Shown: one piece after another, positions 18,204-53,963 of the stretch | Position numbering within the stretch: position 1 is the stretch's first letter | Layout: every line of letters begins with the position of its first letter | Assembly (NCBI GenBank): GCA_934630735.1 | Contig: CAKTWK010000013.1 | Coordinates: forward strand, 1 to 54,027 | Length of the DNA: 54,027 bases | Direction: 5' to 3' | Source of the DNA: an uncultured Collinsella sp. | GTDB taxonomy: Bacteria; Actinomycetota; Coriobacteriia; Coriobacteriales; Coriobacteriaceae | Translations under genes and position numbers: made by a program | The notes under the pieces: model-generated | The model's input: only the letters and a program-made list of their open reading frames with translations | The model's database searches: none | What the model was told of the DNA's origin: nothing

Positions 18204-19504
18204 TCGTCCACCTCCTCTTGCGTGAGCGTTCCCGACCGCAAGCCCTCCGCGATAAACGGCGGCTCGCGGTCGAGCGTCCAGGTACGTTCGGCGGCATCAA
18301 ACGTCACGTAGCGTTCGAGCTCAACACCGCCCGACGCGCCGCGGTGAACCCCCGAATATGAGGCCACAAAGCGCCTGCCATCTGCATGACGCTCGGACAT
18401 CACGATGCCGTCGAGCGCCATGGCGATCTGCTCTTCGATAAGCTCACTCGGCAAATCGATGCCGTAGCGCGCAAGCAGCGTCAGGCGAACCACGGTCTCC
18501 TGCTCGGTACCCGCATGGAGTGTGGTGAGCGAACCGTCGTGGCCCGTGTTCATGGCCTGCAGCATGTCACAGCACTCGGCACCACGCACCTCGCCCACGA
18601 CGATGCGGTCGGGGCGCATACGCAGAGCATTGGTCACCAGGTCGCGAATCGTCACCGCACCCTCGCCCTCGATTGACGCCTCACGCGCCTCCAGACGAAC
18701 AACGTGTGGGTGATGTGCAAACTTGAGCTCGGCGGAATCCTCGATCGTCACGATACGCTCGCCGGTAGAAATCTCGCACGACAGCGCGTTGAGCAGCGTG
18801 GTTTTGCCCGACCCCGTGCCTCCCGCAACCGCCAAGTCCTGCCGTAACGACACCGCGCACGACAGTAGCTGCGCATACCAAAGCGGCAGTGACCCCAACC
18901 CCACAAGCTCGTCCAACGAACAGATACGGTCCGAGAACTTACGGATGGTGAGGATTGGCCCGTCGATCGCCACGGGTGGAATCACCGCGTTGACGCGATA
19001 ACCCGTCTTGAGGCGGGCGTTGACGATGGGGCTACGCTCATCGATACGACGGCCGAGCGGCGAGATGATGCGATCGATGAGCACACGGATCTGTTCGTCG
19101 TCCTCAAACGCGTGCTCGATGGGATACAAAACGCCACTGCGCTCAAAAAAGGCAGAGCGACAGCCGTTGATCATGATTTCGGTAACGGTGTCGTCCTCGA
19201 TGAGCGGCTGCAGCGGTCCCAGGCCCACCACGTCATCTAGGATCTCGTCGATGATGGTCTCACGCTCAGGCGTCGCCAAGTCGGTCGGCTCTTCCACGTT
19301 GAGCGCCGCTTCCACCGCCGGACGTAGCTCAGAGCGGGCAAGAGCCGGGTCGACATAGGCGCTGATGCGCGCCACCTCGTCGTAGCCCACGCGGTCCATC
19401 ACCGCACGCTTGGTGCGGCGTTTAACGGCACGGCGGCGTCCCGCATCAACGGGGGCAGCCGCGGCGGCCGCGCCAGCGGCTTTAATCCTCGTCTGCAGAC
19501 TCAT
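18176..19504 (-). CDS. tadA: Tad pilus assembly ATPase TadA/CpaF
   Basis: Hexameric secretion ATPase of the VirB11/GspE superfamily that powers Flp pilin assembly. It has an N-terminal helical domain, then [20 protein letters not shown] (CpaF signature), Walker [13 protein letters not shown] near residue 225, the Asp box [10 protein letters not shown], Walker [11 protein letters not shown] and the His box [13 protein letters not shown]. It has 442 aa. An N-terminal Ala-rich run ([10 protein letters not shown]) is specific to this copy. The start overlaps the tadZ stop (ATGA). Confidence 0.95.
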
Positions 19505-21150
19505 CGCGAATCACCCTCACGCGACCAGGGAAGACGGATGCGCGGGCGCTCGGTGCGGGTCGCGCGGTCGGCGACCATATCGCTCCAAGGACCGACGGCG
19601 CAGCCCAGCTCCACGAGCATCTCGCGCGTGGCTTCGCGCACGCTGGTCGCAAAAGCGCTCGTCTGACCCACTGCCTCGTCGGCGCGACCGAATGCCATGA
19701 GCGCGGCCAAGTCCTGACCGCCATCGGCAATGCGGATCTTGGAGCTCAGTGCGCAGGCAATCTCGAAGCGCATGGCGACGTCCTCGTCGGCACCGCGCGC
19801 ACCAAACCGGTTGAACACGGCGCTCATGCGTGTGCGCGGCACGCCCACACGGCTCGCCAGCTCAATGACGCGCGAAGCGGATGTCGCGGACGATACTGCC
19901 GCATCGCCTACGACCAGGCAACGGTCGCTCGCCGCCACAGCGGCGGCCACGGCATCACCCCAAAAGACCGAGGTGTCGACAAAGACCACGTCGGATTCGC
20001 GACGCAAAATATCGAGCAATAGCTCCACCGGACGTGCCATGAGCTCGGCCTTCTCGGGGGCCGCGACAGGTCCCCAGAGCGTGACGCCCGGGGCGACACG
20101 CATCGATGCGGCCACGATATCCGGCTCGGCAAGTGCGCCCGCCGCCGACGGCTCGATAAGCGTCGCCATATCGTGCGGGGCATCGACACCCAGCAGATCG
20201 TATAGGTTTCCAAACATGAGGTCCAAGTCGAGCACAGCGGCACGCAAACCCAGCAACGACGCCGCATGCGCCATAGTGGCAACGATCGTCGACTTGCCGC
20301 AACCGCCCGAACCCGAAACGGCGCAGACAACCGGTGCCCGACGAGACGGAATCGAAGCGTCCGCCGACAGCGCGGGGGCTGACGGCGCAGGAACCGGCGA
20401 CACGGACGCGGGCGATAACATCCCCGTCTCCCCCGCCGCGGTCACGTGCTGAGCCCAAGCCGGCATGGCAGGCTGCCCGGGCTGCGGTTCCGAAGCCAAA
20501 GACGCAGCGGCACACGGCTCGCCAGCCCCGGCAAAACCCTCGACCTCGTCGAGCTCATCGGCCAGATTTACGCCGTGCACGTATCCCATATCTTCAGCCA
20601 GAACGTCATCGCCATACGGCACCGGCCCTCCAGCGTCATCGTATGCAAGGGGGTCCCGGGGGCGCCGACCATGCTCGGCTTCCGCTTTTCCATATTCATC
20701 AACACGCGGGCCTCTTGTAGCGCGAGGCGCCCCGGGTTCCCTATCAACAAAAGCATCGGGCTCAATCGTCATGCGCCAATCGGAATCAACCGTTCCCTCA
20801 CCCGCGCGCCCGTTGCCGCACAAACTGTGCGCAGCGATGACCTCGGTCGCCCCCGCGCGAAACAGCCCTTCGATATCCGACGGGTCGAGTGTCTCGATCA
20901 ACACGACGACACGACTCACGCGGCCCTCGGCCGTCAGGCGCGCAACGGTCTTCCGCACATCTTCGGTATCGAACAGAGACGCCGCGATGATGGCGGCACC
21001 GCGACGCGACGGAAACGCCCGCGCCATGGATACCAGCCCGTCCAGGTCGCCCACGCGAAGCACCTGCGCGCCCACATCGCGACCCTCGACTTCCTGCTGT
21101 AGCAGCCCGTAATCGCCGCATGCGCAGCACGCAAGCCAGATCGCCTTCAT
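19501..21150 (-). CDS. tadZ: Tad pilus localisation protein TadZ/CpaE-like
   Basis: A 549-aa protein with an N-terminal receiver-like or pseudo-receiver region (to about 130), a low-complexity Pro/Ala linker (about 150-260) and a C-terminal ParA/MinD-type ATPase domain. The P-loop reads SGSGGCGKST rather than the usual KGGVGKT, with the signature first Lys absent. AVLDLDLMFGNLYDLLG follows. Such proteins place the pilus machinery at the cell pole or septum. ATG 21150 was preferred over an upstream in-frame start because it overlaps the cpaB stop by one base. It lies between cpaB and tadA. Confidence 0.88.
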   Translation of the reverse strand: MKAIWLACCACGDYGLLQQEVEGRDVGAQVLRVGDLDGLVSMARAFPSRRGAAIIAASLFDTEDVRKTVARLTAEGRVSRVVVLIETLDPSDIEGLFRAGATEVIAAHSLCGNGRAGEGTVDSDWRMTIEPDAFVDREPGAPRATRGPRVDEYGKAEAEHGRRPRDPLAYDDAGGPVPYGDDVLAEDMGYVHGVNLADELDEVEGFAGAGEPCAAASLASEPQPGQPAMPAWAQHVTAAGETGMLSPASVSPVPAPSAPALSADASIPSRRAPVVCAVSGSGGCGKSTIVATMAHAASLLGLRAAVLDLDLMFGNLYDLLGVDAPHDMATLIEPSAAGALAEPDIVAASMRVAPGVTLWGPVAAPEKAELMARPVELLLDILRRESDVVFVDTSVFWGDAVAAAVAASDRCLVVGDAAVSSATSASRVIELASRVGVPRTRMSAVFNRFGARGADEDVAMRFEIACALSSKIRIADGGQDLAALMAFGRADEAVGQTSAFATSVREATREMLVELGCAVGPWSDMVADRATRTERPRIRLPWSREGDSR

Positions 21151-21809
21151 CACTCGTCGCCTCCGCTCTTTTTGCCGCGCGCCGTGGCGGGAATCGTCAA
21201 GCTGACCGTTCCCTTTCCCGAGGCTCCCAGCAATTCCTTGACATCTTCGGGGTCTGCCGCCAGCGTCACCCACTCGATCTTGCCTTCACGCGTGGTGCCG
21301 GCATCTTCGCTGGTATCGATCACGTACGCGCCGCACAGCCGATCGGTTACGCCATCTTTTTGCACATACACATCCACGTAGCTGCCCACGCCCGTGGCGC
21401 CGCCGACCGAGTGCTCGGCATCGACCGCCACCGAAACGGCGACCTTGCCCTTAGGCACCTCGAGCTTGTGGCTCTCGGCCTTGGTGTAGACATTGCATAT
21501 CACGGCGTTTTTGGGAATGCGCGAGGTCGTCACGTCGCCGCGCACCTGACGCAGCTCGGTCGCCGCATCACGCGGCAGCAGACTTGCCACCCATTCCTGA
21601 GTTATGACATTAGTCTCGTCGAGGGTCTCGCCCGCATCAATATCGCGCGCCGCGACGCACACCTCAACGCGGTCGCCGCCGTATTTTGCCAAAGTCTCGG
21701 CCTGGGCCTGCTCGGCTTGCGAGCGGATCGACGCGCTGTGGACCATGCAGAGCGCCGCGGCAAGCACGCCCGCGACCAGGCTGATGGCGATGCGCTTGCT
21801 CTTGTTCAC
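21150..21809 (-). CDS. cpaB: CpaB/RcpC-like SAF-domain protein
   Basis: Membrane-anchored protein with one N-terminal helix (RIAISLVAGVLAAALCMV), then a SAF-like domain (VCVAARDIDAGETLDETNV) and a beta-rich domain (VAVSVAVDAEHSVGGATG, GSYVDVYVQ). In Gram-negative Tad systems it links to the secretin; here no secretin is present, as expected for a monoderm. GTG 21809 is chosen because GAGAGGAG precedes it closely. It is the first gene of the operon. It has 219 aa. Confidence 0.85.
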   Translation of the reverse strand: MNKSKRIAISLVAGVLAAALCMVHSASIRSQAEQAQAETLAKYGGDRVEVCVAARDIDAGETLDETNVITQEWVASLLPRDAATELRQVRGDVTTSRIPKNAVICNVYTKAESHKLEVPKGKVAVSVAVDAEHSVGGATGVGSYVDVYVQKDGVTDRLCGAYVIDTSEDAGTTREGKIEWVTLAADPEDVKELLGASGKGTVSLTIPATARGKKSGGDE

Positions 21810-21920
21810 GGCCGCTCCTCTCAAGGTAGCACCGGGCAAATGCCCGTACCACCATTGTCTGGGCGACCAGGGCGCAAAGCGGCGCAATCGCAATCTTGGT
21901 TTTACGTGTCAAACCAATTG

Positions 21921-40648: not shown

Positions 40649-40772
40649 TCCACTCCCCGAAATCAATTGGCAACAAAGCGCTCAAACTGTAGCACGAATA
40701 TTGGTATGAAAAAGCGGATGATTTGGAACATCTACGGGCGTCTAAATTGTGGGGACGAAAGGCTCCGATGAG

Positions 40773-41477
40773 CTATGCCGAGCGGTTGGAATCGTCTAGG
40801 GCTCCGGGGTCGGCTTCCGAACCTTCATCAGTATGGTCGCCGTCGCTCTGCTCCTTGTCGCTGTCCTGCTCCTCCTGCTCGCGACGGCGCTTTTCACGGA
40901 TCTGCTCCACGGCAGCACGCAGGGCGGCCTCGTCCTCGGCACGCGCCACATCTTGCGTGGCTTTAACCATATGGCGAATTTCGAGCACCAGCAGCACAAT
41001 CAACGGCACCACGATAAACGGAAAGAACAGCAGCGGATTGGTGAGCAGCGACACCACCACGCCCAGGCCTGCCGAAACAAAGACCACGCGGCCCACCACA
41101 TCGGCGGCGGGCACGGGCGCGGCGTCCTCGACCGGATTGGCGTCGCCCTTGGTGTGGTAGACCGGCGAGCCGTCGAGCGCGGCCTCCACGGATACGATGC
41201 GGTGCGTGTTGAGCGAACCCTCCAGCGCGTCATCGGACGAATGGAAGGTGATGATGTCGCCCACCTGGTAGACCTGGCTGTTGTCGGTATCGACGACGAT
41301 AAACGAATGCACGGGAATCGCCGGCTCCATCGAGCCGGTCAGCGTACGCATAAAGCCGTAGCCCATGATGGTGGGAATCTCGCCGGCGGGCGTGAACACC
41401 GTGCGCAACAGCACCACAAAGGCGACCAGGATCACCACGGTCGCCAGCACGTTGATCACGCGGAGCACATGCTTCAT
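40773..41477 (-). CDS. SipW-like signal peptidase I (second, end of operon)
   Basis: Signal peptidase I of the Ser-His (ER/SipW) type. It has an N-terminal membrane helix (VINVLATVVILVAFVVLL) and nucleophile motif TGSMEPAI (Ser49). LNTHRIV supplies His92 where Gram-negative enzymes have Lys. A second membrane helix (FFPFIVVPLIVLLVLEI) and a charged cytoplasmic tail follow, with the tail rich in E/R/D (REKRRREQEEQDSDKEQSDG). ATG 41477 overlaps the coiled-coil gene stop (TGATG). It has 234 aa and is the last gene of the exported-protein operon. Confidence 0.88.
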   Translation of the reverse strand: MKHVLRVINVLATVVILVAFVVLLRTVFTPAGEIPTIMGYGFMRTLTGSMEPAIPVHSFIVVDTDNSQVYQVGDIITFHSSDDALEGSLNTHRIVSVEAALDGSPVYHTKGDANPVEDAAPVPAADVVGRVVFVSAGLGVVVSLLTNPLLFFPFIVVPLIVLLVLEIRHMVKATQDVARAEDEAALRAAVEQIREKRRREQEEQDSDKEQSDGDHTDEGSEADPGALDDSNRSA

Positions 41478-43723
41478 CACTTGTCGTCGTCCTTTGCGGA
41501 AGTCTCGGGGTCGCCAGCGACCTCGGCCTCGATGGTATCCGCCGCAGAAGCGCCATCCTCGTCAGGCGCGGCGGCCACGCCCTCGCCGGCCTCGCCGCGC
41601 AGGCGGGCCAGCAGATAGCGCGACAGGCTGTTGCCCTCGGCGCGGCGCTCGGCACGCTCACGATTGCGCTCGGCCTGCTCCAGTTCCTGTGCCAGTGCAT
41701 CCAGGCGCTGCTGCATCTCCGCGCGAGCGGCTTCGACCTCGCGCTCGCAAGCGGCGCGGACGGCGGCGACCTCCTGCTCGATGCGCTCCCCCGCCTCAAG
41801 CTCGGCCGCAGCGATACGCGCGTCGGCATCGACACGGGCCTCCTCGGCGGCACGCGTGGCGGCGTCGCGCTCGGCGGCAGCGGCGGCGACCTTTTCGTTG
41901 GCATCCACCGCAGCCTGCTCAACGGCAGAGTCGGCGGCGGCGCGGGCAGCATCGATCGCGGCATCGGTGGCCTGCTGGGCGGCGGAGACCTTCGCCTCGG
42001 ACGCGGCAACGGCGTCGGCGAGCGCCTGCTCCGCTGCGGCTGCCGCCGCGTCGGCCGCCTCCTGCGCGGCGCGGGCATCACGCTCGGCCGTCAGCTGCAC
42101 CTCCTCAATGCGCAGCTCGGCGGCATCAAGCTTGGCATGCAGTGCAGCCGCTTCCTTGGCAGAGGCCTCACGCACGGCGGCGAGCTCGGCCGCAGCAGCG
42201 TCCTTGGCGGCCTGCAGCTCGGCAGCGTCGGCAGCCGTCTTGGCGGCCAGGGCCGCAGTAGCGTCGCTCTTAACCTGCGCGACCTGAGCGGCAGCGGCCT
42301 GCTCGGCGGCAGCAACCTTGGCGTCCGCGTCGGCACGGGCGGCAACCACCTCGGCATCGGCCTCGGCACGCATCTGCGCCAGCTGCGCCGCCGCGGTCTC
42401 ACGCGCCTCGACAGCGTCGGCCTCGGCAGCTTTCTTGCCCGCCTCGACATCCTCCAGCGAACCTTTCAGCTCCTCAACATCAGCCTCGGCCATCTGAGCG
42501 CGCTGCGTCAACGCCAGCTCGCGCGTCTTTGCCTCGTCCAGCTCGTCGGCCAGGTCGTCGCGCTCGTCGGTCAGCGCATGGGCCTGAACCTTCCAAGACT
42601 TGACCTGCCCCTGCAGCTCCTCGATCTGCTCGCGGGCCTCAGCCAGCGCCTGCTCGGCATCGATCTGGGCCTGCGTAACCTCCTCCACAAACACGCGACG
42701 GACCTCAACGTCGGGCAGGTCGGGGCTATCGACCTGCACCTCCTTAATCTCCTTAATAAACTTGGGCGCCACCGGCGCGTGTTGCGCGCTTTCGAGCTCC
42801 TGCAGGTTGCGCTCGTCATCGGTCAGGCTCTTAAAGACGGCGTAGTTGTTGATGAGGTTGGTGTACATCTGCACCATGTACTCGTCATCGAACGCCAGCG
42901 TCTGCTGCTGCACGTCGATGTTGTAGCCCACCTTGTCGTAGCGCTCCATAAACTGCCACAGCTGGTAGCACTTGCGGTAGTTGGGGTCTTTCATGATGAG
43001 GTTGGTGCGCTGAATGGGGCTGCGGACCGCACTGCACCCATTCATGATCTGGCAGAACGACGCGCCACGCAGCGCCATGACCAGGCGGCGCACGCGGTCG
43101 ATGCGCATAAAGACGTCCATGTTATCGGCGTCGTTCTCGGCAAAGCTCTGACGGTTCTTGACCGTCATCTCGACGTTATACTCGATCTCTTCGTACGCAT
43201 CGTCGATCTTGCTGTGCATCTTAAAGCGGTTGCGGATCTCGTTGCCCGTCGACCAAAAGATCACGTCGGTGCGCTTGTCCACAAACGTCAGCAGGCGCTG
43301 AATCAGGTGGTAGATAAAGCGGTTCTCGTACAGATCGTACGTCTCGACGGTATTGACGTTGAGGATGCGCGTAGGGTGGACGCTGCCATCGTCGCTCGGT
43401 GCCAAAAACTGCGTGTTCTGGCTCAGGTGACGGACACTGTCGGCGCTGATCTTTTTGGCAAGCGAGACCGGCACCACCTCTTCCTCGGTGGTGATGAAGC
43501 GGCGCGGCTTTTCGATAATGGTGTTAATGGCGTCGAGCGAGTCCTCGATCATGCTGATCCATTCCTCGTCCACCACCTTGACGAGCTCCTCGCGCTGCTG
43601 CTCGATCGTGGTGCCCGAGGCCTGCGCCATCTCAAACAGATAGCGGAAGTAGCGGCTGTCCTCCTGGATGGGCTCCATCTGCTCGGAGAAGCTGGTATAG
43701 AGGTCCTGAATAGTCTCGGACAT
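41477..43723 (-). CDS. DUF2357/McrC-like N-terminus fused to a long Ala/Glu coiled coil
   Basis: A 748-aa soluble protein. Residues 1-310 resemble the DUF2357 region of McrC-like proteins: LDAINTIIEKPRRFITTEEE with VPVSLAKKIS, and YDLYENRFIYHLIQRLL in place of the family's DTPENRF-type motif. No nuclease domain follows. Instead about residues 345-700 form an uninterrupted coiled coil made almost wholly of A, E, D, R, Q, V, then a short SLSRYLLARLRGE patch and an acidic tail. GGAG precedes ATG 43723. It sits right after the AAA+ ATPase gene, as McrC follows McrB. It probably forms the rod or regulator of that ATPase; its task is unknown. Confidence 0.75.
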   Translation of the reverse strand: MSETIQDLYTSFSEQMEPIQEDSRYFRYLFEMAQASGTTIEQQREELVKVVDEEWISMIEDSLDAINTIIEKPRRFITTEEEVVPVSLAKKISADSVRHLSQNTQFLAPSDDGSVHPTRILNVNTVETYDLYENRFIYHLIQRLLTFVDKRTDVIFWSTGNEIRNRFKMHSKIDDAYEEIEYNVEMTVKNRQSFAENDADNMDVFMRIDRVRRLVMALRGASFCQIMNGCSAVRSPIQRTNLIMKDPNYRKCYQLWQFMERYDKVGYNIDVQQQTLAFDDEYMVQMYTNLINNYAVFKSLTDDERNLQELESAQHAPVAPKFIKEIKEVQVDSPDLPDVEVRRVFVEEVTQAQIDAEQALAEAREQIEELQGQVKSWKVQAHALTDERDDLADELDEAKTRELALTQRAQMAEADVEELKGSLEDVEAGKKAAEADAVEARETAAAQLAQMRAEADAEVVAARADADAKVAAAEQAAAAQVAQVKSDATAALAAKTAADAAELQAAKDAAAAELAAVREASAKEAAALHAKLDAAELRIEEVQLTAERDARAAQEAADAAAAAAEQALADAVAASEAKVSAAQQATDAAIDAARAAADSAVEQAAVDANEKVAAAAAERDAATRAAEEARVDADARIAAAELEAGERIEQEVAAVRAACEREVEAARAEMQQRLDALAQELEQAERNRERAERRAEGNSLSRYLLARLRGEAGEGVAAAPDEDGASAADTIEAEVAGDPETSAKDDDK

Positions 43724-43792
43724 GGGTTACTCCATAGGTTGGATCGATCGGAAAGAGGCGGGGCGACATCACGCCGCCCCGCACTTACGCCA

Positions 43793-45493
43793 TTAGTAGA
43801 AGTTCTGGATCCGCTGCAGGTACATGACGGAATCGGGCAGACCGCCCTCGCCAAAGGTCTTCTCGATGTACTCGATCAGGCCCTTCATCTCGTCGCGCAC
43901 AAAGCTTACGTTCATGGACTCAAACTTCTTGAGCACCTTGCGGGCGATGATGTAGTCCATGCCGCCCAGCTCGGTGCCGCCGCACGCCACGTACACGGGG
44001 ATAAAGTCGTACATCTGCTTGATGATACGGTTGCCAAAGGCCAGCTTAAAGCGGGTCTGCAGGTACTGGTCCAGCTTGTGCATCTTCTGGAGCAGCTCGT
44101 CGTCGATCACGTACTCGACCTTGGCCTTCTGGAACAGATACTGCAGGTGGTCGGCCGTCACGTGCACGCGCTCGTGCGGCTCGCACTCAAATGCGTCGGC
44201 ACGCTCGTTGAGCTCGATGGGGATCGCGCGGTCGTACACCTTGTCCGTGATGGTAAAGGTGGAGTCGTCGTTGTTGGCCGTGCCAATGAACCACAGGCTG
44301 TCGGGGATGGTGAGCTTGCCGTCGTGCAGGCCCTTGGGGTCGGCGGCCCACTGGGTGGGCACCAGATCGAGTACCCACTCGTCGTGGCTGGGCATCTCGA
44401 GCACCGACAGGATCTCGGCAAAGTAGTACTCCACGCGGGCGAGGTTCATCTCGTCGAGCACGATCATGGACGGGTCCTGGCGAAGGCCCGCCTCGTATAC
44501 GGCGCGGAGGAACTCGGTCTCGTTAAAGCGCTTGGAAAACTCGTTAAAGTAGCCGAGCACCTCGGTGCGGTCGCGGAAGCTCGGCTGCACCGACACGATG
44601 GTCGCGGGGTTGTCCAAATAGCGGCTAAAGCTGTAGGGCAGCGACGTCTTACCGGTACCCGAGATGCCCTCCAGGATCAGCAGCTTAGAGGCGGCCATGC
44701 CGGCCACAAAGCGGCGGATGATCTCGGGCGTGTAGTAGAGCTTCATCTGGCTGCAGGCGAACGCGCGGAAGCTGTCGACAAAGTCCTCCAGCGAGATGGC
44801 ATCGTCGTAGACCGGCGACTCCCAGTCGCGGTACTTGAGGTCCACAAGGGACAGCTTGGGGAAGCGGTTGGCCTGGGCGATTTCTTTTTCCTCGGCAAGG
44901 GTCTTGGCCTCGACGGTGGCCTTGGCCATGGCGGCCGCGGCGTCCTTGACACCCGCGCCATCGAGCGCGAGCGACGCGTTACCCGACATGACGGCCGTCG
45001 CCGCGGCGCCCTCGCCCGCAGGCGCACCGGCGCCCGCGGCGGCGCCCACCACGTTGCCCACCGTGGGCAGGTGGTCGTCGGCAAGGGCCGAGGCACCCAC
45101 GTACGGAATCTGCTTGGTGCCGCCCATGGCGTTGACCTTAAGCGCCAGCAGCTTGTTCTTCTCGTCCATGAGGTCGAGCACCTGCTTGTTCAGGCGGCCG
45201 ATCTCGCGATAGAGCGCCTTGTTGGACGTGTCGTCGCGATGCAGGCGGCGGTTGATGCGGTAGCGGTGGACCAGGATGGCCACGATCAGCACGGGGACCG
45301 CGATGAGCATGACAAACAGAATGACCGCGCCAATCTTGCCCACCAGGTCAAACGTGGTGAAGTAGGTCATAAAGATGTTGAAGTACTCAACCCAGCCAAA
45401 CACCAGCAGGTTCAGGATGGAGCTCACGACGGCAACGACGTTGTAGACGACCTTTGCCAGCAGCTCCCAGGCAAATCCCAGAAACTCACTCAC
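43793..45493 (-). CDS. Membrane-anchored McrB-like AAA+ ATPase
   Basis: A 566-aa protein. Two hydrophobic helices (about 10-34 and 51-75), a short coiled segment (95-118) and an Ala/Gly-rich linker (145-200) precede an AAA+ domain. Walker A is EGISGTGKTS (275-284), Walker B MIVLDEMN (343-350) followed by LARVEYYFAEILSVLE as in McrB relatives, and sensor-type GTANNDDS (404-411). The nucleotide, motor and membrane parts are therefore joined. It follows a SipW gene (8-bp overlap) and precedes the DUF2357/coiled-coil gene. McrB itself is soluble and cuts modified DNA with McrC; here no nuclease is seen. Confidence 0.85.
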   Translation of the reverse strand: MSEFLGFAWELLAKVVYNVVAVVSSILNLLVFGWVEYFNIFMTYFTTFDLVGKIGAVILFVMLIAVPVLIVAILVHRYRINRRLHRDDTSNKALYREIGRLNKQVLDLMDEKNKLLALKVNAMGGTKQIPYVGASALADDHLPTVGNVVGAAAGAGAPAGEGAAATAVMSGNASLALDGAGVKDAAAAMAKATVEAKTLAEEKEIAQANRFPKLSLVDLKYRDWESPVYDDAISLEDFVDSFRAFACSQMKLYYTPEIIRRFVAGMAASKLLILEGISGTGKTSLPYSFSRYLDNPATIVSVQPSFRDRTEVLGYFNEFSKRFNETEFLRAVYEAGLRQDPSMIVLDEMNLARVEYYFAEILSVLEMPSHDEWVLDLVPTQWAADPKGLHDGKLTIPDSLWFIGTANNDDSTFTITDKVYDRAIPIELNERADAFECEPHERVHVTADHLQYLFQKAKVEYVIDDELLQKMHKLDQYLQTRFKLAFGNRIIKQMYDFIPVYVACGGTELGGMDYIIARKVLKKFESMNVSFVRDEMKGLIEYIEKTFGEGGLPDSVMYLQRIQNFY

Positions 45494-46232
45494 CGTCGGT
45501 ACCCTCCTGCTTGGTCGCGTTCATCGCCGCCTCGGCCTCGGCCTTCAGACGACGGGCTTCCTCGAGCTTGGCCTCGGCCTGAGCGAGCTGCTCGGCGGCG
45601 TTATCGGCGGTGACGGCGGTGTCGCCCTTGCCCTCGGCGTCCACGATGGCGGCCGCGGCGGCCAGGCGGTCCTCCTCGGCCATGGCGCGCTTGAGGTTCA
45701 TGCCCACCACGATGAGGTGATACACCTGGTAGATAAAGAACAGCAGCATGGGCAGCACGATCACGATGAGGAATCCCATTGAGCTGGACAGGAAGTCCAT
45801 GACCTTGCCCATCTGCGGCAGCGCGAACACGTACTTGCCCACGATGTCGCCGTCGCTGATGATGTGCGTATCGGCCACGTCGTTGTTGTCGCCCTTGGTG
45901 GTAAAGCTGCGCATGCCGTTGACCTCGTCGATGGCGGCGATGCGGTGCGTGTTGAGCGCGTACTCGTTGTCGATGATGGTGTGGAACGTCACGATGTCGC
46001 CCACCTCGAGCTTGGAGGTGTCGCACTTTTGGATGACGATGAGGTCGCCCTTGTTAAACGTGGGTGCCATGGAGTCGGACTGCACGGCGAGCGGGGTGAA
46101 GCCGGCGATGTCAGAGACGCTGCCGTCCTCGTGCGTGGCGAGCGTGGTAAACGCATATAGGGCCGCCACCAGGATGATGATCCACATGACGACGCTCAGC
46201 GCGATGGATGCGACTTTTTTAACAGATTGCAT
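45486..46232 (-). CDS. sipW: SipW-like signal peptidase I (first)
   Basis: Ser-His signal peptidase of the SipW group, which cuts TasA/camelysin-type exported proteins. The N-terminal helix (ALSVVMWIIILVAALYAF) is followed by catalytic Ser54 in QSDSMAPTF and His96 in ALNTHRIAA, the second membrane helix (GFLIVIVLPMLLFFIYQV) and a cytoplasmic A/E-rich coiled tail (AEAKLEEARRLKAEAEAAM). It is placed between the four exported proteins and the AAA+ ATPase, as expected for a dedicated peptidase. It has 248 aa. Confidence 0.9.
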   Translation of the reverse strand: MQSVKKVASIALSVVMWIIILVAALYAFTTLATHEDGSVSDIAGFTPLAVQSDSMAPTFNKGDLIVIQKCDTSKLEVGDIVTFHTIIDNEYALNTHRIAAIDEVNGMRSFTTKGDNNDVADTHIISDGDIVGKYVFALPQMGKVMDFLSSSMGFLIVIVLPMLLFFIYQVYHLIVVGMNLKRAMAEEDRLAAAAAIVDAEGKGDTAVTADNAAEQLAQAEAKLEEARRLKAEAEAAMNATKQEGTDGE

Positions 46233-46292
46233 GATGTCCCTTACTACCGTGTCTGACTAGGTCGTGCGCGGCCCGGTGGCCGCCGTGCGTAT

Positions 46293-47096
46293 CTACTGTT
46301 CCTCGATGCCCTCAAAGCGCATCGAAACCGAATAGTTAGCTCCCTTTAGCATATTAGTGCAATTTGGGTCCGTTCCCTCGAGCCATATGCGAACAGTTAC
46401 CGGCTTGTCCGTATCTTTTATCAGGTCGAACATATCGCTGGCCGAAGTTGCCGTACCCGAATCGAGCCCAAAGACGGTGGCCGTGCCAGATGAGCCCCCG
46501 CCCCCGTTGGGGTTGTAGACCCAGGTGTGGCCGTCGGCGGTAAAGCTCATGCGCATGGCGCTTGCCATGCCCTGCGTGTCGGAGCTAAACCGCGTACCGG
46601 ATGCGCCGTTGTCGCCGTCCTGCCCGGTCAGTCGAACGCGCAGGTCCGTGCTGCTCATAAAGTGCAGCGTAAACTCCAGGTAGGCGCCGGTGGCGGGGTC
46701 GGCGGTGGAACCGTCCTCGAAGGTGAAGGTCTGGTAGTCGCTCGTGGTGACGGGTTTGAGCTTGGACGCATCGATGTCCACGCCCTTTTCGCTGGCGATG
46801 CGCGCCGAGATCTGGTCGAAGCCCAGGCTGTGGATGTACTCTTCGAAGGTGGCATGCTCGTCCAGGTCAAAGCGCAGCGAACCGTCGGCGTTGGCGTCAA
46901 TCATGAGCATGCGGGTTTTGGCGCTATCGGCGATGGAGAACCAGGCGAACGTTGCCATGGCTATCGCCACCAGCGCAAACAGCACCAGCACCACGGTGGT
47001 GGTGAGCTTGCGGCGCAGGTCGGTGTCGGCGGGCGCGGCGGCGTTGGGCTTGCCGGTGGCGGGCGTGCAGTTGGCGGCGGGTTGCTTACGCGTCAT
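46293..47096 (-). CDS. SipW-type exported protein D (TasA-like)
   Basis: A 267-aa precursor with a basic N-terminus, a hydrophobic helix (VVLVLFALVAIAMATF) and TFAWFS at 49-54, the cleavage-region motif of SipW substrates. The rest is beta-rich with few Cys. Near the C-terminus is IWLEGTDPNCTNML, which recurs in the three upstream paralogues. It resembles TasA/camelysin-type fibre proteins in layout, not in close sequence. It is the last of four such genes and directly precedes sipW. Confidence 0.8.
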   Translation of the reverse strand: MTRKQPAANCTPATGKPNAAAPADTDLRRKLTTTVVLVLFALVAIAMATFAWFSIADSAKTRMLMIDANADGSLRFDLDEHATFEEYIHSLGFDQISARIASEKGVDIDASKLKPVTTSDYQTFTFEDGSTADPATGAYLEFTLHFMSSTDLRVRLTGQDGDNGASGTRFSSDTQGMASAMRMSFTADGHTWVYNPNGGGGSSGTATVFGLDSGTATSASDMFDLIKDTDKPVTVRIWLEGTDPNCTNMLKGANYSVSMRFEGIEEQ

Positions 47097-47098
47097 GG

Positions 47099-48055
47099 CT
47101 ACTCACCGTCCAGGGTCGCAAAGAGGGCCAGGTGCAGGGTGCCCGGGTCTTGATGCAGGTAGTCGGCGCTATCGGGGTCGGTACCCTCGATGTAGTAATA
47201 GATATCCAGGCGATAGGTCTGGCCCAGCGCCAGCGTGGCGAGCGAGTTTTGCGGACGCTCGGCCGTCTCGCTCGTGTCCAGCGTAAAGGTGGCCGGGTCC
47301 TGTGTCACGTTGGCGCCGCAAGCGAGCTGGCCGTTTTGCCAGCCCAGCAGCATGCCATCGGCGTAGCCGGCCAGGCCCGCAGGCGCGGTCGTGGGATGCT
47401 CGCCGCGATGGCCGCTGTCGGAACTGTCGAGTTCAAAGATGTTGGTGGCAAGCACCCGGCCGCCGCTCGAGATCTTGATGCCCACGCGGGCCGCGCGCAG
47501 CAGCTCGGCGTCGGCACCCTGCGGAACCAGCGATTCGGCCAGATACAGGCTCACCCTGCCCTTAACCTTGCTGGCGCCCGTGCCCGTGATGGTGGGGCGC
47601 AGGTCAATCCAGCCGTGATAGAACGCGGAACCGTTGTCTTTTGCCTGCTCGAACACCGTGGCATCGCCGGCTGAGTTGTTTTGTGCGCAGGCAGCAAAGC
47701 CGTTGAGGTCAAAGGTCGAGACCGGGTAGAGCGTCACGGCGCCGGTCGCATTGGAAGTTAGGGAAACGTCGCCCTGATGCGACCAGCTGCCGCGATCGGC
47801 GTCGCCCAGCTCAAGCACCAGCTTGGACGTGTCACTGCGCACGCTCACCGAGTTGGTGTTGACCTTCATGTTGTTGGTAAACCAGGCGTAGGTCGCGGCG
47901 CCCAAGGTGGCGGCGAGCGCCACCATAACGAGCGCGATGTAGGCACGCGCGCGGCGAGCGTGGCGGCGGGCATCGGCGCTGGAGGAGACCGCGGAGTCCG
48001 CGCTCTGGGTTTTGGCCTCGCAGCTATCTGCTGGCATGTGCTTCTGATCTTCCAT
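47099..48055 (-). CDS. SipW-type exported protein C (TasA-like)
   Basis: A 318-aa precursor with a 37-residue cytoplasmic start, a helix (AYIALVMVALAATLGAATY) and TYAWFTNN at 55-62. The exterior is beta-rich with a conserved SVSVRSDTSKL-type region, and the C-terminal motif is YIEGTDPDSADYL (the second Cys of the motif is Ser here). The start at 48055 is 14 bp after the stop of protein B. It shares layout with A, B and D and is likely one subunit of a hetero-fibre or a set of alternative subunits. Confidence 0.8.
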   Translation of the reverse strand: MEDQKHMPADSCEAKTQSADSAVSSSADARRHARRARAYIALVMVALAATLGAATYAWFTNNMKVNTNSVSVRSDTSKLVLELGDADRGSWSHQGDVSLTSNATGAVTLYPVSTFDLNGFAACAQNNSAGDATVFEQAKDNGSAFYHGWIDLRPTITGTGASKVKGRVSLYLAESLVPQGADAELLRAARVGIKISSGGRVLATNIFELDSSDSGHRGEHPTTAPAGLAGYADGMLLGWQNGQLACGANVTQDPATFTLDTSETAERPQNSLATLALGQTYRLDIYYYIEGTDPDSADYLHQDPGTLHLALFATLDGE

Positions 48056-48068
48056 GTCGCTCGCCCCC

Positions 48069-48905
48069 TTATGCCTTGGCCGCGGCAAAGGCAAGCTGCA
48101 GCACCACATCGCGGGCCTGAGCCTCGTCGATGCAATTGGCGTCGCAGCCTTCCATGTACACAACGTAGCGAACACTTGCCACCTCGTTGGCGGCCAGCGT
48201 GCAAATGGGCGTGGCGCCCGCGCGCGCCGTGGGCGTGTCACCGGTGCCGTCCATGCTGTAAGCGCTTATGGCGCGCGCAGGGTCGGAGGTGTAGCTCCAG
48301 CCCGAAGCGCCGCCCGCTACGACCACGCCGTCTTGCGCCGTGGTGCGTCTGCTGGTAGCGCCCGCGGTATTGCCTAGGTCGTCGCAGGTAAAGATATGCG
48401 TTTGCGTGCCCGATTGGGTCGTGATGACCAGGCCCAGGCGCAGTGCGGCCAGCAGCTGCGGGTCGCTCGTCACGCTCATCTGGCCCTGATACAGGTACAC
48501 GTTGAGCGCGCTATCGCTGCCCTTGAGGTACAGCGTGCCCGAGAGAGCGTAGTCGTCCAGCTGCGCGGTGCAGTCGGCGTAGTCGGTCGTGACGCCCGCG
48601 GCGTTTTGGAACGTGCCACGCCAAAAGCGGGAAAGGTCTGCCGTCGAGATGGGATAGAGCGTCTTGTCGGCAGAGGCGAGTGCAGCCGTCGTGTCCCAGG
48701 GCCCGTTGGCCGAAAGGCCAATCTGCAGGTCGGAGCCCTCGTCGCTTACCGTGTGTGCCACGGGCGTCACATTAGTGTAGCGCGAGTTGCTAAACCATGC
48801 GTAGGTGGCGGCGCTCAGGGCGGCTACCAGCACCAGCATCCATGCAGCCGCAGCAACCATGCGACGGCGCGAGCTTAGGATATCTTTGATGTTCGATGCA
48901 CTCAT
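48069..48905 (-). CDS. SipW-type exported protein B (TasA-like)
   Basis: A 278-aa precursor: MSASNIKDILSSRRRM, a helix to about 33, then TYAWFSNS at 34-41. The exterior domain includes DLQIGLSANGPWDTT and several beta-type strands. The C-terminal YMEGCDANCIDEAQ has a Cys-x3-Cys pair. Start and stop are tightly spaced from A and C (about 10 bp). Together with A it carries the strictest form of the shared Cys motif. Confidence 0.8.
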   Translation of the reverse strand: MSASNIKDILSSRRRMVAAAAWMLVLVAALSAATYAWFSNSRYTNVTPVAHTVSDEGSDLQIGLSANGPWDTTAALASADKTLYPISTADLSRFWRGTFQNAAGVTTDYADCTAQLDDYALSGTLYLKGSDSALNVYLYQGQMSVTSDPQLLAALRLGLVITTQSGTQTHIFTCDDLGNTAGATSRRTTAQDGVVVAGGASGWSYTSDPARAISAYSMDGTGDTPTARAGATPICTLAANEVASVRYVVYMEGCDANCIDEAQARDVVLQLAFAAAKA

Positions 48906-48916
48906 ACCCAGCCCCC

Positions 48917-49801
48917 TTACGAACGCTTGCCGGCAAAGCGCAGCGCCAGCGATTGCAGGCTAGTGGCGGCCAGGTTGTTGGTGCAGTCGGGGTCGCAGCC
49001 TTCCAGCCACACGTATACATCCACACGCACGGGCGTGCTGCGGTTGGCTCCCTTGGCAGCGGCGGGCAGGCTGCAGATCTTGGTCGTGGCCTCTTTGAGA
49101 CTCACGATACCGGTGTCTTCGTTGTAGTCGCAGAAGTTAGCGCTGGTCAGCTGGTCAAAATGGACCGTGGCACCATCGGAGCGGGTACTGTCGAGCACCA
49201 GGTGGTCCTGCTCGCTTTCGCTGGCATCCTTGCCGTCGAGCGTGTTATAGCGCGCTTGGGGATTGTGCTCGCCCGAGACCTCAAAGATGTACTGGCCCGT
49301 CACGGTGTCGCTTTTGCCCGGGGCATAGGCGACCAGCCCCACGCGCAGGGCGGTAGAGATAGGATTTGCCGGGTCCTGCTCGGTAAAGTCGATGCCCGAC
49401 AGGTACACGTCGGTCGCGGCCGAGTTGGTGGCCAGGTACAGGGAAGTCTTGTAGTAGTCGGAATGCTCGGCGGCGCCAAACATGCTGGCAAACAGCGAGT
49501 CCTGGGTGGTTCCGCCAGTAAAACCCGTTACCTTTTGGAAGCCGTTGAGCACGTTATCGGTCGAGACGGGATCGAGCAGGCCCGCAAAGCTTAGACCGGC
49601 GTTGGTCTTATACTCGCCGTCGTATTCGTTGGAGATAAGGAAGGTCACGCCCGTGCCCGCGGCCATCTTGACGTCGGTGATATGACGGTTGGCATTGTAG
49701 ATGTACCAGGCATACGTTACAGCTCCGGCAGCAGCAAGGGCCACCAGCAACGTGGCGAGCATACGATTGAACTGTTTTCGCAACGAGCGCGCGTCCGACA
49801 T
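48917..49801 (-). CDS. SipW-type exported protein A (TasA-like), first of operon
   Basis: A 294-aa precursor with MSDARSLRKQFNRML, a helix (ATLLVALAAAGAVTYAW) and TYAWYI at 29-34. The exterior domain begins with GTGVTFLISNEYDGEYKT, and the C-terminal motif is WLEGCDPDCTNNL followed by a final ALRFAGKRS strand. ATG 49801 has GGGGGAGGG upstream; an in-frame start at 49852 lacks a site. It is the first gene of the exported-protein operon. Confidence 0.8.
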   Translation of the reverse strand: MSDARSLRKQFNRMLATLLVALAAAGAVTYAWYIYNANRHITDVKMAAGTGVTFLISNEYDGEYKTNAGLSFAGLLDPVSTDNVLNGFQKVTGFTGGTTQDSLFASMFGAAEHSDYYKTSLYLATNSAATDVYLSGIDFTEQDPANPISTALRVGLVAYAPGKSDTVTGQYIFEVSGEHNPQARYNTLDGKDASESEQDHLVLDSTRSDGATVHFDQLTSANFCDYNEDTGIVSLKEATTKICSLPAAAKGANRSTPVRVDVYVWLEGCDPDCTNNLAATSLQSLALRFAGKRS

Positions 49802-49973
49802 GTCCCTCCCCCAGATGCCGCGTTGTAAACTGCCTGGGCACCATTTGCCCATAATGGAGTTATTTTACGCGAACGTGCAGTTCATCGGGGGTACAAACGG
49901 GACTTTTCGCGTGCTGTTCGCGCTGCGGCGGGCTCCGATGGGGCCACAATTCACCAGTTTTTTAAAATAGTTC

Positions 49974-50150: not shown

Positions 50151-50349
50151 ACGCCGCCAAGCCAAGAGGGCGTCGCGGCACCCAAAACCGCCTCAACAAC
50201 TCCAATAACCATCCCGGCCGAGACCAATACCGCCTCGGCAGCGCCAGCAATCATTTCAACCAAGTCCACAGTCGCCCAAACCGTCTTGGCGACCGCCTCA
50301 ACCGAGCCTGGATGGGCCTCGATGCCACATCCGGACAACCTTCCTATAG

Positions 50350-50531
50350 TCAGGTCTAATACTTTTCCGCGAAGTGAACGAGCTTATTTGGACCCCCGAA
50401 GCATGCACACTTTTTGAAGCCAAAACCGCAGGATTCCAATGTCAAAACCGCAGGAAATGAGCCGCCAAAAGTGTCGATGCTTCGGGGGTCCATTTTGACT
50501 CGTTCACTTCGCAAAAAAGTATTAGACCTGA
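50350..50531. mobile_element. MITE-like palindromic element, 182 bp
   Basis: The ends carry TCAGGTCTAATACTTTT and its inverted form, perfect over 15 or more bp. The long arms (about 65 bp, largely matching, with GACCCCCGAAGC/GCTTCGGGGGTC inside) enclose a core with two direct CAAAACCGCAGGA repeats. No coding frame is supported. No clear target-site duplication is visible. It fits a miniature inverted-repeat element mobilised by a transposase encoded elsewhere. Confidence 0.7.
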
Positions 50532-50568
50532 AAACAGGGCCCCTGGCCCACCCCTCCAGCAACCGCCC

Positions 50569-51672
50569 TTACCAATGTTGACGCGCCTCGATAACCGTTT
50601 GCCAAAGCTTAAACCGCTTTGTTTCGGCGCGCGCGAGGGCAAGATGCCGCTGTTCCTCCGTCATGGGCCTGTTAAAGATGGGTCGCTTATTCCGATGCAG
50701 CTTGCGCCGGACGCGTTCGCACAGGCGAACGAGCTTTTCGTAGTCGCTCGCCTGGTCAGTCGTCACCGTAAAGTACGCGACCCCATTGAGCATCTGCAGC
50801 TCGTTGCGGCGCTCGGCATCCTTGTGGATTTTCTCGCTTCCATCATGGATGGCGTCGCTGTCGTAATCGACCAGCGCGGTAAGCACCTCGGGCAGCAAGC
50901 CAGCCCTTACTTTATCCAGGCCCACCTCGGCTTTCGCCGTAAGCGTTATGTCGGGCGTGCGCTCCAACACGCGCAGTTTGCGGTTGCGCCCATCGTTGTA
51001 GCCGTCGCGAATGAAGTACTTCTTGTTCAGCTCGGCCTTGCCCAGCGCAAGTCCGCCGTAATGCGCAGGCAGCGACATAAACATGCAAAGCCCCGACTCC
51101 CTTGGAGACCGTGAGCCCTCTTCCACGTACGGAAGCAACGCCTTCGCCTTGGCGGCGCCTCTCACCTTTGACGCCCGGTCAAGGTACGCCGCAATGAGTT
51201 CCTTAGTCGTAAGCCTGCCATCGCGCATGCCCGCATCCCTGCTGGTCACCCCGCCGGGAGCAAGGTTATCCAGCCGGTAGTCCGATGTCATGGCATAGCC
51301 GGCATAGATGGCCGCCGCCGCATCGCCATCGTGCGCGGCCTGCAAAAACGCCAGCTCGGGAGAGCACACGTATGCATCCAGGTCGCCTCTCCAGTGGCCC
51401 AGCGAGATAAACGAACCCGCGGGGAGCTCGTTGGTGCACAGATGCGTCTTAACATGCTTGGTCCGCCGGCGGTCGGCGCGCGTCGGCACCATCAGATCCA
51501 GCGTTTCAATCCCCAGGTCGTAGCGATCGATAAACTCCTGCGCCTCCTGGTCACAGAGCGCGCAGGCACCCGCGATCGACACGACCTCTGGTTCCGAATC
51601 CCCAAAGCGCGGGTTCGGGATGTGCGCCAAGAGCGCCAGCGCAGCGTTATGTGAAACGATAAAGTACCCCAT
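50569..51672 (-). CDS. AbiEi/DUF559-like protein
   Basis: A 367-aa protein of a type common in Coriobacteriia. The first 250 residues resemble AbiEi-type winged-helix/antitoxin-like proteins (GYFIVSHNAALALLAHIPNP; VPTRADRRRTKHVK). The last 100 contain VDYDSDAIH, KDAERRNELQMLNGVAYFTVT, similar in order to a DUF559/VSR-like nuclease fold (Y-D-x, H, D-x2-R-x2-L-x2-x-G). The nuclease Asp/Glu set looks incomplete. ATG 51672 is the best start though its site is weak. A defence or DNA-processing role is possible and unproven. Confidence 0.65.
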   Translation of the reverse strand: MGYFIVSHNAALALLAHIPNPRFGDSEPEVVSIAGACALCDQEAQEFIDRYDLGIETLDLMVPTRADRRRTKHVKTHLCTNELPAGSFISLGHWRGDLDAYVCSPELAFLQAAHDGDAAAAIYAGYAMTSDYRLDNLAPGGVTSRDAGMRDGRLTTKELIAAYLDRASKVRGAAKAKALLPYVEEGSRSPRESGLCMFMSLPAHYGGLALGKAELNKKYFIRDGYNDGRNRKLRVLERTPDITLTAKAEVGLDKVRAGLLPEVLTALVDYDSDAIHDGSEKIHKDAERRNELQMLNGVAYFTVTTDQASDYEKLVRLCERVRRKLHRNKRPIFNRPMTEEQRHLALARAETKRFKLWQTVIEARQHW

Positions 51673-51794
51673 GGCGCGAAGATAGCACGCGCGTCGGCGG
51701 CGGCTCGCGGCCCTGGCGAGTTTTCGGCAAACGACCAGCAGTTTTTTGCCGCGGCGCAACCAAAGTGTTCATTCGTCGACGTCTAAATGCAAAT

Positions 51795-51843
51795 CCGTCA
51801 AACTTCTGGCAAGGTTGCCGCTCAACTGACCAAAAGCTGACCA
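51795..51843. promoter_or_regulatory. Second copy of the TGACCA-repeat motif
   Basis: The 18-mer CTGACCAAAAGCTGACCA (51826-51843) is identical to 21921-21938, and the 22-bp stretch at 51795-51816 is a near match to 21941-21962. The order of the two parts is reversed relative to the Tad copy. It lies between the AbiEi-like and DUF5710 genes, which are divergent, and may control either. Confidence 0.5.
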
Positions 51844-51989
51844 TTTGCTTGCCCATTTGCCTGACGGCGCGCCCTCGCCAAAATGCTCCGCGACTTCTCG
51901 GGCGGTCGAAGTGCTCGTTTAGCGACCACACACCCGCCGCTGGGGTATCCTTGGAGCACATGCACCGCAAGCCGCACAAAGGAGCCGCC

Positions 51990-52688: not shown

Positions 52689-52937
52689 CGATTGTGATGT
52701 ACAAACTGATGTACAAACAAAGCTATAAAGCGCATGCCCCGTTAAACCAAATACGAATTCATTAGTTTGAGCAATCAAACGAAAAGGGCATATATAAATT
52801 TTACGCTGACACCGTTCAGATTCTCGATCAGATGAGGCCCGCTCTTCACTTCGTCGGTAAACAACTACCGAAACATACTCAGCATACTCAGCAATCGTCC
52901 TAACAATGAAGCAACACCATCTACCAACTGCGATTTG

Positions 52938-52960
52938 GTACAATTGTTCGTATATTGTAC
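52938..52960 (+). promoter_or_regulatory. Palindrome in front of the SIR2-like gene
   Basis: A perfect GTACAAT-N9-ATTGTAC palindrome ends 3 bp before the AAGGAGA ribosome site. TATATT within it could serve as a -10. It may be an operator for autoregulation. The 270 bp upstream contains short direct repeats (GATGTACAAAC twice, CATACTCAG twice) and no other gene. Confidence 0.5.
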
Positions 52961-52976
52961 GCAAAGGAGAGAGCCC

Positions 52977-53963
52977 ATGGACGAAACGATCTGCAGCATT
53001 ATTCGAAGCGCTGTTTCGGATGCAAACCGCTACCCGTTTTTGTTTGTTGGCTCCGGTTTATCACGTAGATACATGAATTCGCCCAACTGGGCAGACTTGC
53101 TTGAAGCTGTCTGCAGCAGAGCCTTTGGTGACACAGCGGATTTTACAAAGTTTAGGACCAAAGCGTCTGTTGCCTATCGAAACGAAAAAGTAAAAGCAGA
53201 GCTTCCTTATGTCGCAACACTCATGGAAGATCGTGTTAATGATGCTTTGCTAGATGACACCGAATTCATGCGCGCTCACGCCGAAACGATTGCATCAGGC
53301 GGGTCTCCCATGAAACAGCTCGTTGCCGACATCGTAAATTCTTATACGCTTGAAGACGACGCCGAGGTTGAATTGCTGAAGAGCGCCGGTGATTCCAAAT
53401 TGTCTGGAATAATCACTACCAACTACGATCAAATGTGCGAGCACCTATTTGATAGCTTCACCGTATACGAAAGCCAAGACGACTTGCTTTTCGCTGAACA
53501 GAGCTTCACTCGCGAAATATATAAGATACATGGTTCCGTTTCGAACCCAGACGGCATGGTCCTCACCGATGCAGACTACGATGAATTCGGCCGCAAGCGG
53601 AAATACCTCTCCGCAAAGCTACTATCTGTGTTCCTAGAGTATCCCGTCATCTTTCTTGGTTACTCAATCCAAGACGAGAACATTAAAAGCATTCTCTCTG
53701 ATATTGCAGAATGCCTCTCCGACGAGACAATTAGCAGGCTTAAGACGCGCCTGATCTTTGTACAGTGGGGAAACACCACCTCTATCAGCGATTACACTGT
53801 TTCCTTTGGAAATAAACTGATCTCAATGACAAAGATTGAAACTGACGATTTTGCGTCTATTTACGAAAGCATCGGCCAGACCGAGAGACTGTATAGTACA
53901 AAAATCCTGCAAGAGCTTAGGGGCAGCGTTTTTAGACTTGCCGATAAAATAAGGCTCTGTTAG
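52977..53963 (+). CDS. SIR2-like NAD-binding protein, probable defence NADase
   Basis: A 328-aa standalone SIR2-type Rossmann protein. FLFVGSGLSRRY gives the Gly-rich nucleotide loop, IITTNYDQM the conserved Asn-Asp pair, KIHGSVSNPDG the catalytic His and FLGYSIQDENI the closing motif, so the NAD site is intact. Such proteins in bacterial defence systems cleave NAD+ on phage infection and cause abortive infection. Codons and composition are far more AT-rich than the neighbourhood, suggesting recent transfer. ATG 52977 has AAGGAGA upstream. No partner gene is in the window; the final codons lie in the 72-bp inverted repeat. Confidence 0.8.
   Translation: MDETICSIIRSAVSDANRYPFLFVGSGLSRRYMNSPNWADLLEAVCSRAFGDTADFTKFRTKASVAYRNEKVKAELPYVATLMEDRVNDALLDDTEFMRAHAETIASGGSPMKQLVADIVNSYTLEDDAEVELLKSAGDSKLSGIITTNYDQMCEHLFDSFTVYESQDDLLFAEQSFTREIYKIHGSVSNPDGMVLTDADYDEFGRKRKYLSAKLLSVFLEYPVIFLGYSIQDENIKSILSDIAECLSDETISRLKTRLIFVQWGNTTSISDYTVSFGNKLISMTKIETDDFASIYESIGQTERLYSTKILQELRGSVFRLADKIRLC

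Follow-up and report, generated by a model that had tools for sequence, protein, structure and literature searches.

A CoCoPALM-type gene cluster in an uncultured Collinsella joins signal peptidases and exported proteins to a nuclease-less McrBC-like pair

The 54,027-nucleotide stretch of contig CAKTWK010000013.1 from an uncultured Collinsella sp., called the window below, contains a cluster of eight genes that belongs to a kind of locus already named, CoCoPALM, but hardly described so far. All eight open reading frames (ORFs) lie on the minus strand within 40773-49801. A check of the window DNA confirmed their coordinates and the short gaps or overlaps between them that a first-pass annotation had reported. 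In operon order from E4 to SipA the intergenic distances are 11, 13, 2, 60, -8, 69, and -4 bp, and this close spacing suggests that the eight genes form a single transcription unit. Promoter and terminator scans of the cluster gave scores no better than those of shuffled sequences, and no promoter was placed. The guanine-cytosine (GC) content does not set the cluster apart from the surrounding DNA.

The first four genes encode exported proteins, each with one N-terminal transmembrane (TM) segment ending in T[FY]AW[FY]; in the leaders given here an arrow marks the predicted cleavage site. E4 (48917..49801) has 294 residues and the leader VTYA↓WY when read from ATG 49801, directly behind GGGGGAGGGAC, with ATG 49852 as the other candidate start. 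It is followed by E3 (48069..48905; 278 residues, leader ATYA↓WF, TM 16-34), E2 (47099..48055; 318 residues from an internal ATG, leader ATYA↓WF, TM 40-58), and E1 (46293..47096; 267 residues, leader ATFA↓WF), which adjoins the peptidase SipB and carries WLEGTDPNC near its C-terminus. Cleavage at T[FY]A↓W[FY] would make the second residue (P2′) of all four mature proteins aromatic, F or Y, as in TasA. According to the available text of PMC10269814, TasA has Phe at P2′ and is cleaved poorly by LepB, the cleavage being carried out by the dedicated SipW.

The four proteins turned out to be mutually related: a common profile collects 206 ORFs from 61 of 81 loci, and the conserved marks of the family are T.AWF and, near the C-terminus, W.EG.D..C. 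The leader A and W are invariant across a 44-sequence alignment of E1. The leader motif AW[FYLV] was found in 150 of 197 exported-family ORFs and in only 10 of 570 other ORFs of at least 200 residues from the same loci, with a pattern that overlooked 42 of the 197. In a tree of 200 exported sequences E1-E4 fall into four separate clades sorted by operon position: 32/32 members of the E1 clade stand at position u1 (support 0.98), 26/26 of the E2 clade at u2 (0.98), 25/26 of the E3 clade at u3 (0.999), and 24/25 of the E4 clade at u4 (1.0). It follows that in loci of Collinsella and of the Clostridia type the four subunits form an old set of fixed order; in loci outside these the exported copies group differently.

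The first-pass annotation called the four proteins TasA-like. The leaders, and perhaps the fold, bear this out, but none of the four is TasA or camelysin by sequence. The Pfam search returned no significant family match for E1-E4, and none of the four exceeds the Pfam cut-off of TasA/camelysin PF12389, which matches a single member of the 44-sequence E1 alignment at E=0.013. E2 scores 16.2 bits against TIGR04088 (cognate_SipW), under the cut-off of 19. The TapA model TIGR04087 matches one of the same 44 sequences, at E=0.096 only, and lists no window protein. A structure was modelled for E1, one protein of the four; it has a leader helix, then a low-confidence strand (59-69), then a beta sandwich. 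A structural comparison of the kind that the first-pass annotation had proposed places the archaeal 0406 filament and the TasA fibre in rows 1 and 2 of 50 structural matches, although at middling Z, and many further rows are FimA/FimH/CfaB pilins. A jelly-roll donor-strand subunit fold is possible for E1.

The exported genes are followed by SipB (45486..46232), a Ser/His signal peptidase of the S26B type with two TMs and a long charged C-terminal tail, and the cluster ends with a second Ser/His signal peptidase, SipA (40773..41480), also with TMs and a charged C-terminal tail. Both clear the curated cut-off of the archaeal-type family TIGR02228 (51.85 bits), with 112.1 bits for SipB (E=2.2e-32) and 81.5 bits for SipA (E=5.7e-23). 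Against the SipW equivalog NF046067 the two reach 85.4 and 95.9 bits, the curated cut-off being 190. A strict Ser-His pattern overlooked 54 of 133 peptidase ORFs, and a looser one fits 122 of 126 ORFs of at least 150 residues; among the four left over, Ser and His are visible by eye in three and the fourth is cut. C-terminal tails of at least 30 residues are present in 71/71 upstream and 48/57 downstream peptidases, the control being a small set of five outside peptidases with a mixed result. Contact with a coiled coil through these tails was considered and dropped, as the window tails give no heptad signal. Elsewhere in the genome of locus L076 (G552) two further archaeal-type signal peptidases lie about 5 kb from each other and perhaps mark a second cluster.

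Between the two peptidase genes lie those of an AAA+ protein and a McrC-like protein. The AAA+ protein (43793..45493; 566 residues, with GISGTGKT, DEMN, and GTANND) had been described as a membrane-anchored McrB-like ATPase, and the description holds. It has two N-terminal TM regions, and a profile of its family (29 sequences) finds McrB as the sole PDB matches at E<=0.1, the best at 6.8e-4. PADLOC assigns it to the candidate family PDC-M26A (E=2.7e-37). Coiled coils were called by comparing the heptad signal with 300 shuffles rather than by a dedicated predictor; the signal at residues 84-122 of the AAA+ protein is reached by 6 of 300. Pfam finds no McrB-type N-terminal recognition domain in the window protein, whose N-terminus consists of the TMs and the coiled coil. 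The NxD motif GTAN[NKQRH]D occurs in 77 of 81 AAA+ ORFs (that of locus L100 included), and an N-terminal TM in 78 of 81, the exceptions being two that start at contig edges and L100.

The neighbouring McrC-like protein (41477..43723; 748 residues) was expected from the first pass to join a DUF2357-like part to a coiled coil, and it does: it matches DUF2357 (PF09823, E=1.9e-11), and its Ala/Glu-rich C-terminal rod (345-725), with 1 Pro, gives a heptad signal that none of 300 shuffles reaches. The rod signal is clear in 6 of 10 McrC-like relatives tested and weak or missing in 4. The model of its core aligns with residues 34-191 of E. coli McrC only, which form the stalk region. Pfam matched no nuclease family in the window protein and none in five McrC-like relatives, three of which match DUF2357 and two nothing. 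We regard the protein as a McrC homolog without the PD-(D/E)xK nuclease, with the rod in its place; a degenerate nuclease within the rod is formally possible.

The same assembly was found in many other genomes. The 80 genome loci compared here are the best of at least 566 confirmed AAA+ relatives from a scan of named genomes, and linkage was counted over loci with sufficient flanking DNA because many contigs are cut. The first-pass annotation had reckoned with an AAA+/coiled-coil pair that occurs mostly without the exported genes, and this is not the case in the nearest relatives: a signal peptidase is present in 80/80 loci, and exported genes stand upstream in 41/44 loci whose upstream DNA reaches at least 6 kb, with four or more such genes in 26/44. 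A peptidase lies within 400 bp upstream of the AAA+ gene in 58/62 loci (not in L044, L075, L095, and L096), McrC is next to the AAA+ gene in 61/62 (the exception is L076), and a second peptidase follows downstream in 47/48. Three loci (L055, L085, and L089) have peptidase, AAA+, and McrC genes, and an upstream exported gene was not recognised in them. The order of four exported proteins, peptidase, AAA+, McrC, and peptidase recurs from Collinsella to Lachnospiraceae, with AAA+ identities of 39-98% across the recurring loci. Taken with the enrichment of the leader motif, this recurrence in other taxa indicates that the cluster is more than a chance neighbourhood, and in this respect the earlier idea of a coherent surface-fibre or envelope system is supported.

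Going by record titles, the hosts include Collinsella, Lachnospiraceae, Oscillospiraceae, Erysipelotrichaceae, Christensenellaceae, and two wall-less groups, Izemoplasmatales and Acholeplasmatales. A locus titled Omnitrophota (L082) may be misbinned; the length and end of its McrC are as listed for L081. Distant AAA+ relatives without a peptidase were seen in L012 and L013, which have short flanks, and in L100. Viral contigs gave 33 pattern matches with one true relative, which lacks a peptidase and whose McrC partner ends in a cysteine-rich segment.

Izemoplasma-type loci encode an additional exported protein of about 200 residues (193-208) soon after McrC, or after the AAA+ gene in L076. It occurs in L057, L059-L061, L063, L065, L069, L070, L073, L074, L076, L079, L083, L084, and L086, from Izemoplasmatales, Acholeplasmatales, and related records. 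This protein exceeds the PF12389 camelysin cut-off in L060, and 2 of 15 copies match at E<=0.01; hhalign pairs its leader region with the E1 leader across 54 columns (96.3%). Large proteins were also noted beside the cluster in L066 (3999-8945; 1648 residues, TM-GWF-type start) and L039 (2-5332; 1776 residues, cut at the locus start). The Pfam search gave no match for either, and both are possible adhesins.

Genes of cyclic di-GMP (c-di-GMP) signalling stand beside many copies of the cluster. A PilZ-type gene was found in 14/80 loci and EAL/GGDEF-like genes in 18/80; one or the other is present in 30/80 loci and in 22/36 loci with at least 6 kb on both sides of the AAA+ gene. For PilZ the 14 occurrences in 1.15 Mb of locus DNA compare with 0.35 expected from the density in whole-genome searches, and Pfam supports the assignment in the one protein checked (7.1e-12). 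The EAL profile also catches GGDEF-only proteins (L044 and L087): a Pfam check of 12 of the 34 EAL/GGDEF-like ORFs found EAL in 10 and GGDEF alone in 2, the ORFs of L029 being among the remaining 22. In 20 chosen genomes, 19 of 89 EAL places are at the cluster (coordinates compared by hand). These 19 come from 10 genomes, three of which have no EAL places beyond the two at the cluster. Similarly, of 14 PilZ places in 20 chosen genomes, 9 are at the cluster; 7 of the 9 genomes concerned have no other PilZ. As both sets were picked largely because the locus already showed such genes, the fair rates are the locus-wide 22/36 and 30/80.

In 12 loci the PilZ gene adjoins that of a membrane protein of 316-384 residues (L023, 17313-18284; L043, 16856-18010; and 10 further relatives). 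This protein has no AW motif after its TM segment, yet it has an E1-like end, W.(E/D)G.DP(E/D)C, common to both proteins, and aligns with E1 over 119 columns (hhalign 97.1%, E=6.5e-11). Judged by its sequence, it is a candidate for an uncleaved fibre base controlled by c-di-GMP. Counts from a profile seeded with it were discarded, since the profile drifted into the exported family. Beside the window copy of the cluster the PilZ, EAL/GGDEF, and membrane-protein neighbours are absent. The two cluster-bearing genomes of the genus Collinsella have 8 and 9 GGDEF matches, and any GGDEF is present in 27/43 genus genomes.

The genomic site of the cluster can be read from its relatives. The adjoining EamA gene is present in 40/43 genus genomes, and the peptidase of the cluster in 2/43, plus the window. 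Of 30 EamA loci, 17 have an empty site, where about 200-255 bases separate the EamA gene from the block that precedes tRNA-Val, 2 are carriers, and in 11 the tRNA-side block does not show (2 near, L106 and L107, and 9 more distant). The gene for tRNA-Val was detected in 14/19 loci scanned, and in both carriers (L020 and L021) the cluster lies between EamA and tRNA-Val. The empty site in relatives indicates that the cluster was inserted as one block of 9.3 kb, 5′ of tRNA-Val; it extends over 40663..49958 between outer blocks common to cluster-less genomes, the EamA gene and the tRNA-Val leader.

Several other features of the window were noted. The DNA at 50160-51935, between the tRNA-Val block and a DUF5710 gene, is unmatched in 14 of the 30 EamA loci, where the tRNA-Val block and the DUF5710-side block stand close together; it is a second variable spot beside the cluster. 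Beyond tRNA-Val, in DNA of lower GC content (0.47), a gene at 52935-53963 encodes a SIR2-like protein (PF13289; PADLOC candidate PDC-S25, 1.6e-104), perhaps a mobile defence gene. A Tad/Flp pilus locus at 16639-21893, with a T2SSE ATPase (18176-19504), two T2SSF proteins, and RcpC/CpaB, is a second surface-fibre system, separate from the cluster; the Pfam search of the nearby 13036-15303 gave no match.

The cluster is probably a CoCoPALM-type surface-fibre system, often linked to c-di-GMP, in which a McrBC machine without a nuclease drives or gates processing or assembly. The four related exported proteins would cross the membrane and be held by their N-terminal anchors until SipA and SipB cut them at the predicted site, releasing an aromatic-led N-terminal strand. 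The released subunits would then polymerise extracellularly through donor-strand exchange, as TasA does. On the inner face, a membrane-anchored ring of the McrB-like AAA+ protein, to which the nuclease-less, long-rodded McrC-like stalk would bind and which it would stimulate, may contact the peptidases and spend nucleoside triphosphate (NTP) hydrolysis on gating or driving processing and assembly. Since the nuclease and recognition parts are gone, such a membrane platform is the most plausible object of the AAA+/McrC cycle. In many hosts the c-di-GMP genes beside the cluster would control the platform.

An alternative is that the pair serves defence, a membrane-tethered McrBC derivative sensing infection and the exported proteins forming a surface barrier or receptor mask against phage. 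McrBC ancestry, the PADLOC placement of the AAA+ family, the patchy presence of the cluster in the genus as a clean insertion, and the SIR2-like PDC-S25 gene 3 kb off, beyond the tRNA, all agree with this; patchiness is undecisive, however, because surface genes are patchy too. We consider defence unlikely, given that a nuclease domain was not found, that TMs occupy the N-terminus where McrB has its recognition domain (PMC11090510, in its available text), that the viral contigs yielded one relative, itself without a peptidase, and that the c-di-GMP genes beside many copies suit a surface lifestyle better.

The pair could also be a regulator or a quality-control device, for example one that extracts or positions complexes of peptidase and substrate, with the fibres assembling without its help. 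TasA fibres form by TapA-helped donor-strand exchange with no motor mentioned in the available text of PMC9674648, the pair appears to face the cytosol, and the three loci without a recognised upstream exported gene still hold it. Against this, the pair has much the same degree of conservation as the peptidases and sits between them in the operon, so we grant the proposal a minor chance, noting that it departs from the fibre-platform explanation only in the target of the motor. That unrelated modules are transcribed together by chance is very improbable: the distant AAA+ relatives without a peptidase would fit it, but order and content recur in many taxa at widely differing AAA+ identity, and the cluster is present as one block.

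A bolder form of the fibre-platform explanation, which we hold tentatively and at somewhat less than even chances, is that an AAA+ GTPase/ATPase ring of restriction origin constitutes, together with the stalk that activates it, a new class of filament-assembly machine. Having lost the recognition domain and nuclease and gained an anchor and a rod, it would be an energised, c-di-GMP-gated inner-membrane platform that, in gut Bacillota, Collinsella, and wall-less lineages, builds fibres from dedicated subunits through donor-strand exchange. If the fibre explanation is true, CoCoPALM loci, now classed with type IV restriction, are filament systems in which a defence motor has been reused for surface architecture. 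Gut Lachnospiraceae, Erysipelotrichaceae, and Collinsella would then have a dedicated fibre, and its substrates, its processing site, and its regulator are now testable. The set of substrates, the absence of a nuclease, and the connection with c-di-GMP make this barely described kind of locus a testable hypothesis.

The cluster can be compared with several known systems. It resembles the tapA-sipW-tasA operon of Bacillus in the dedicated signal peptidase, the aromatic P2′ leaders, and the possible jelly-roll donor-strand fold, and differs from it in having exported proteins of another sequence family, two peptidases, four subunit lineages, and the AAA+/McrC pair. To our knowledge the Bacillus operon has no such pair, and we are not aware of an AAA+ motor linked to TasA-type fibres, none being apparent in the titles and abstract openings surveyed. 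F29 is named among the donor-strand residues of TasA (PMC9674648), and the B. cereus TasA/CalY filaments are reported to be governed by a chaperone-like partner, CapP (PMC13082335). The archaeal 0406 filament and bundling pili are similar to E1 in structure at middling scores, without a demonstrated sequence relation. Unlike chaperone-usher pili (FimA, CfaB), the window shows no usher or periplasmic chaperone among its eight genes, and the hosts of the cluster are Gram-positive.

The cluster resembles McrBC type IV restriction in the AAA+ profile, which retrieves McrB alone from the PDB at E<=0.1, and in the McrC-like core, which matches McrC stalks. According to the available text of PMC11090510, McrB is a hexamer with a stimulating McrC stalk and an N-terminal recognition domain; the window pair, in contrast, has a membrane anchor for the recognition domain, a rod for the PD-(D/E)xK nuclease, and linkage to export genes. 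The first-pass annotation held that known McrBC loci do not encode exported proteins. The same paper does not support this: in one paragraph it names such loci CoCoPALM and announces a separate paper. The pairing is thus not wholly new. CoCoPALM is described there as an NxD McrB-like GTPase with an N-terminal TM/coiled coil (an FtsB-like TM plus coiled coil being fused to the GTPase), a coiled-coil McrC homolog, and signal peptidase family proteins; the main text makes no mention of TasA, SipW, c-di-GMP, PilZ, biofilm, or camelysin. The window matches this account with its NxD McrB-like AAA+ protein, rod-bearing McrC homolog, and two linked peptidases. While the supplements may hold some of it, what is described here on the four lineages of exported proteins, the lack of a nuclease, and the neighbouring c-di-GMP genes goes beyond the main-text account of CoCoPALM.

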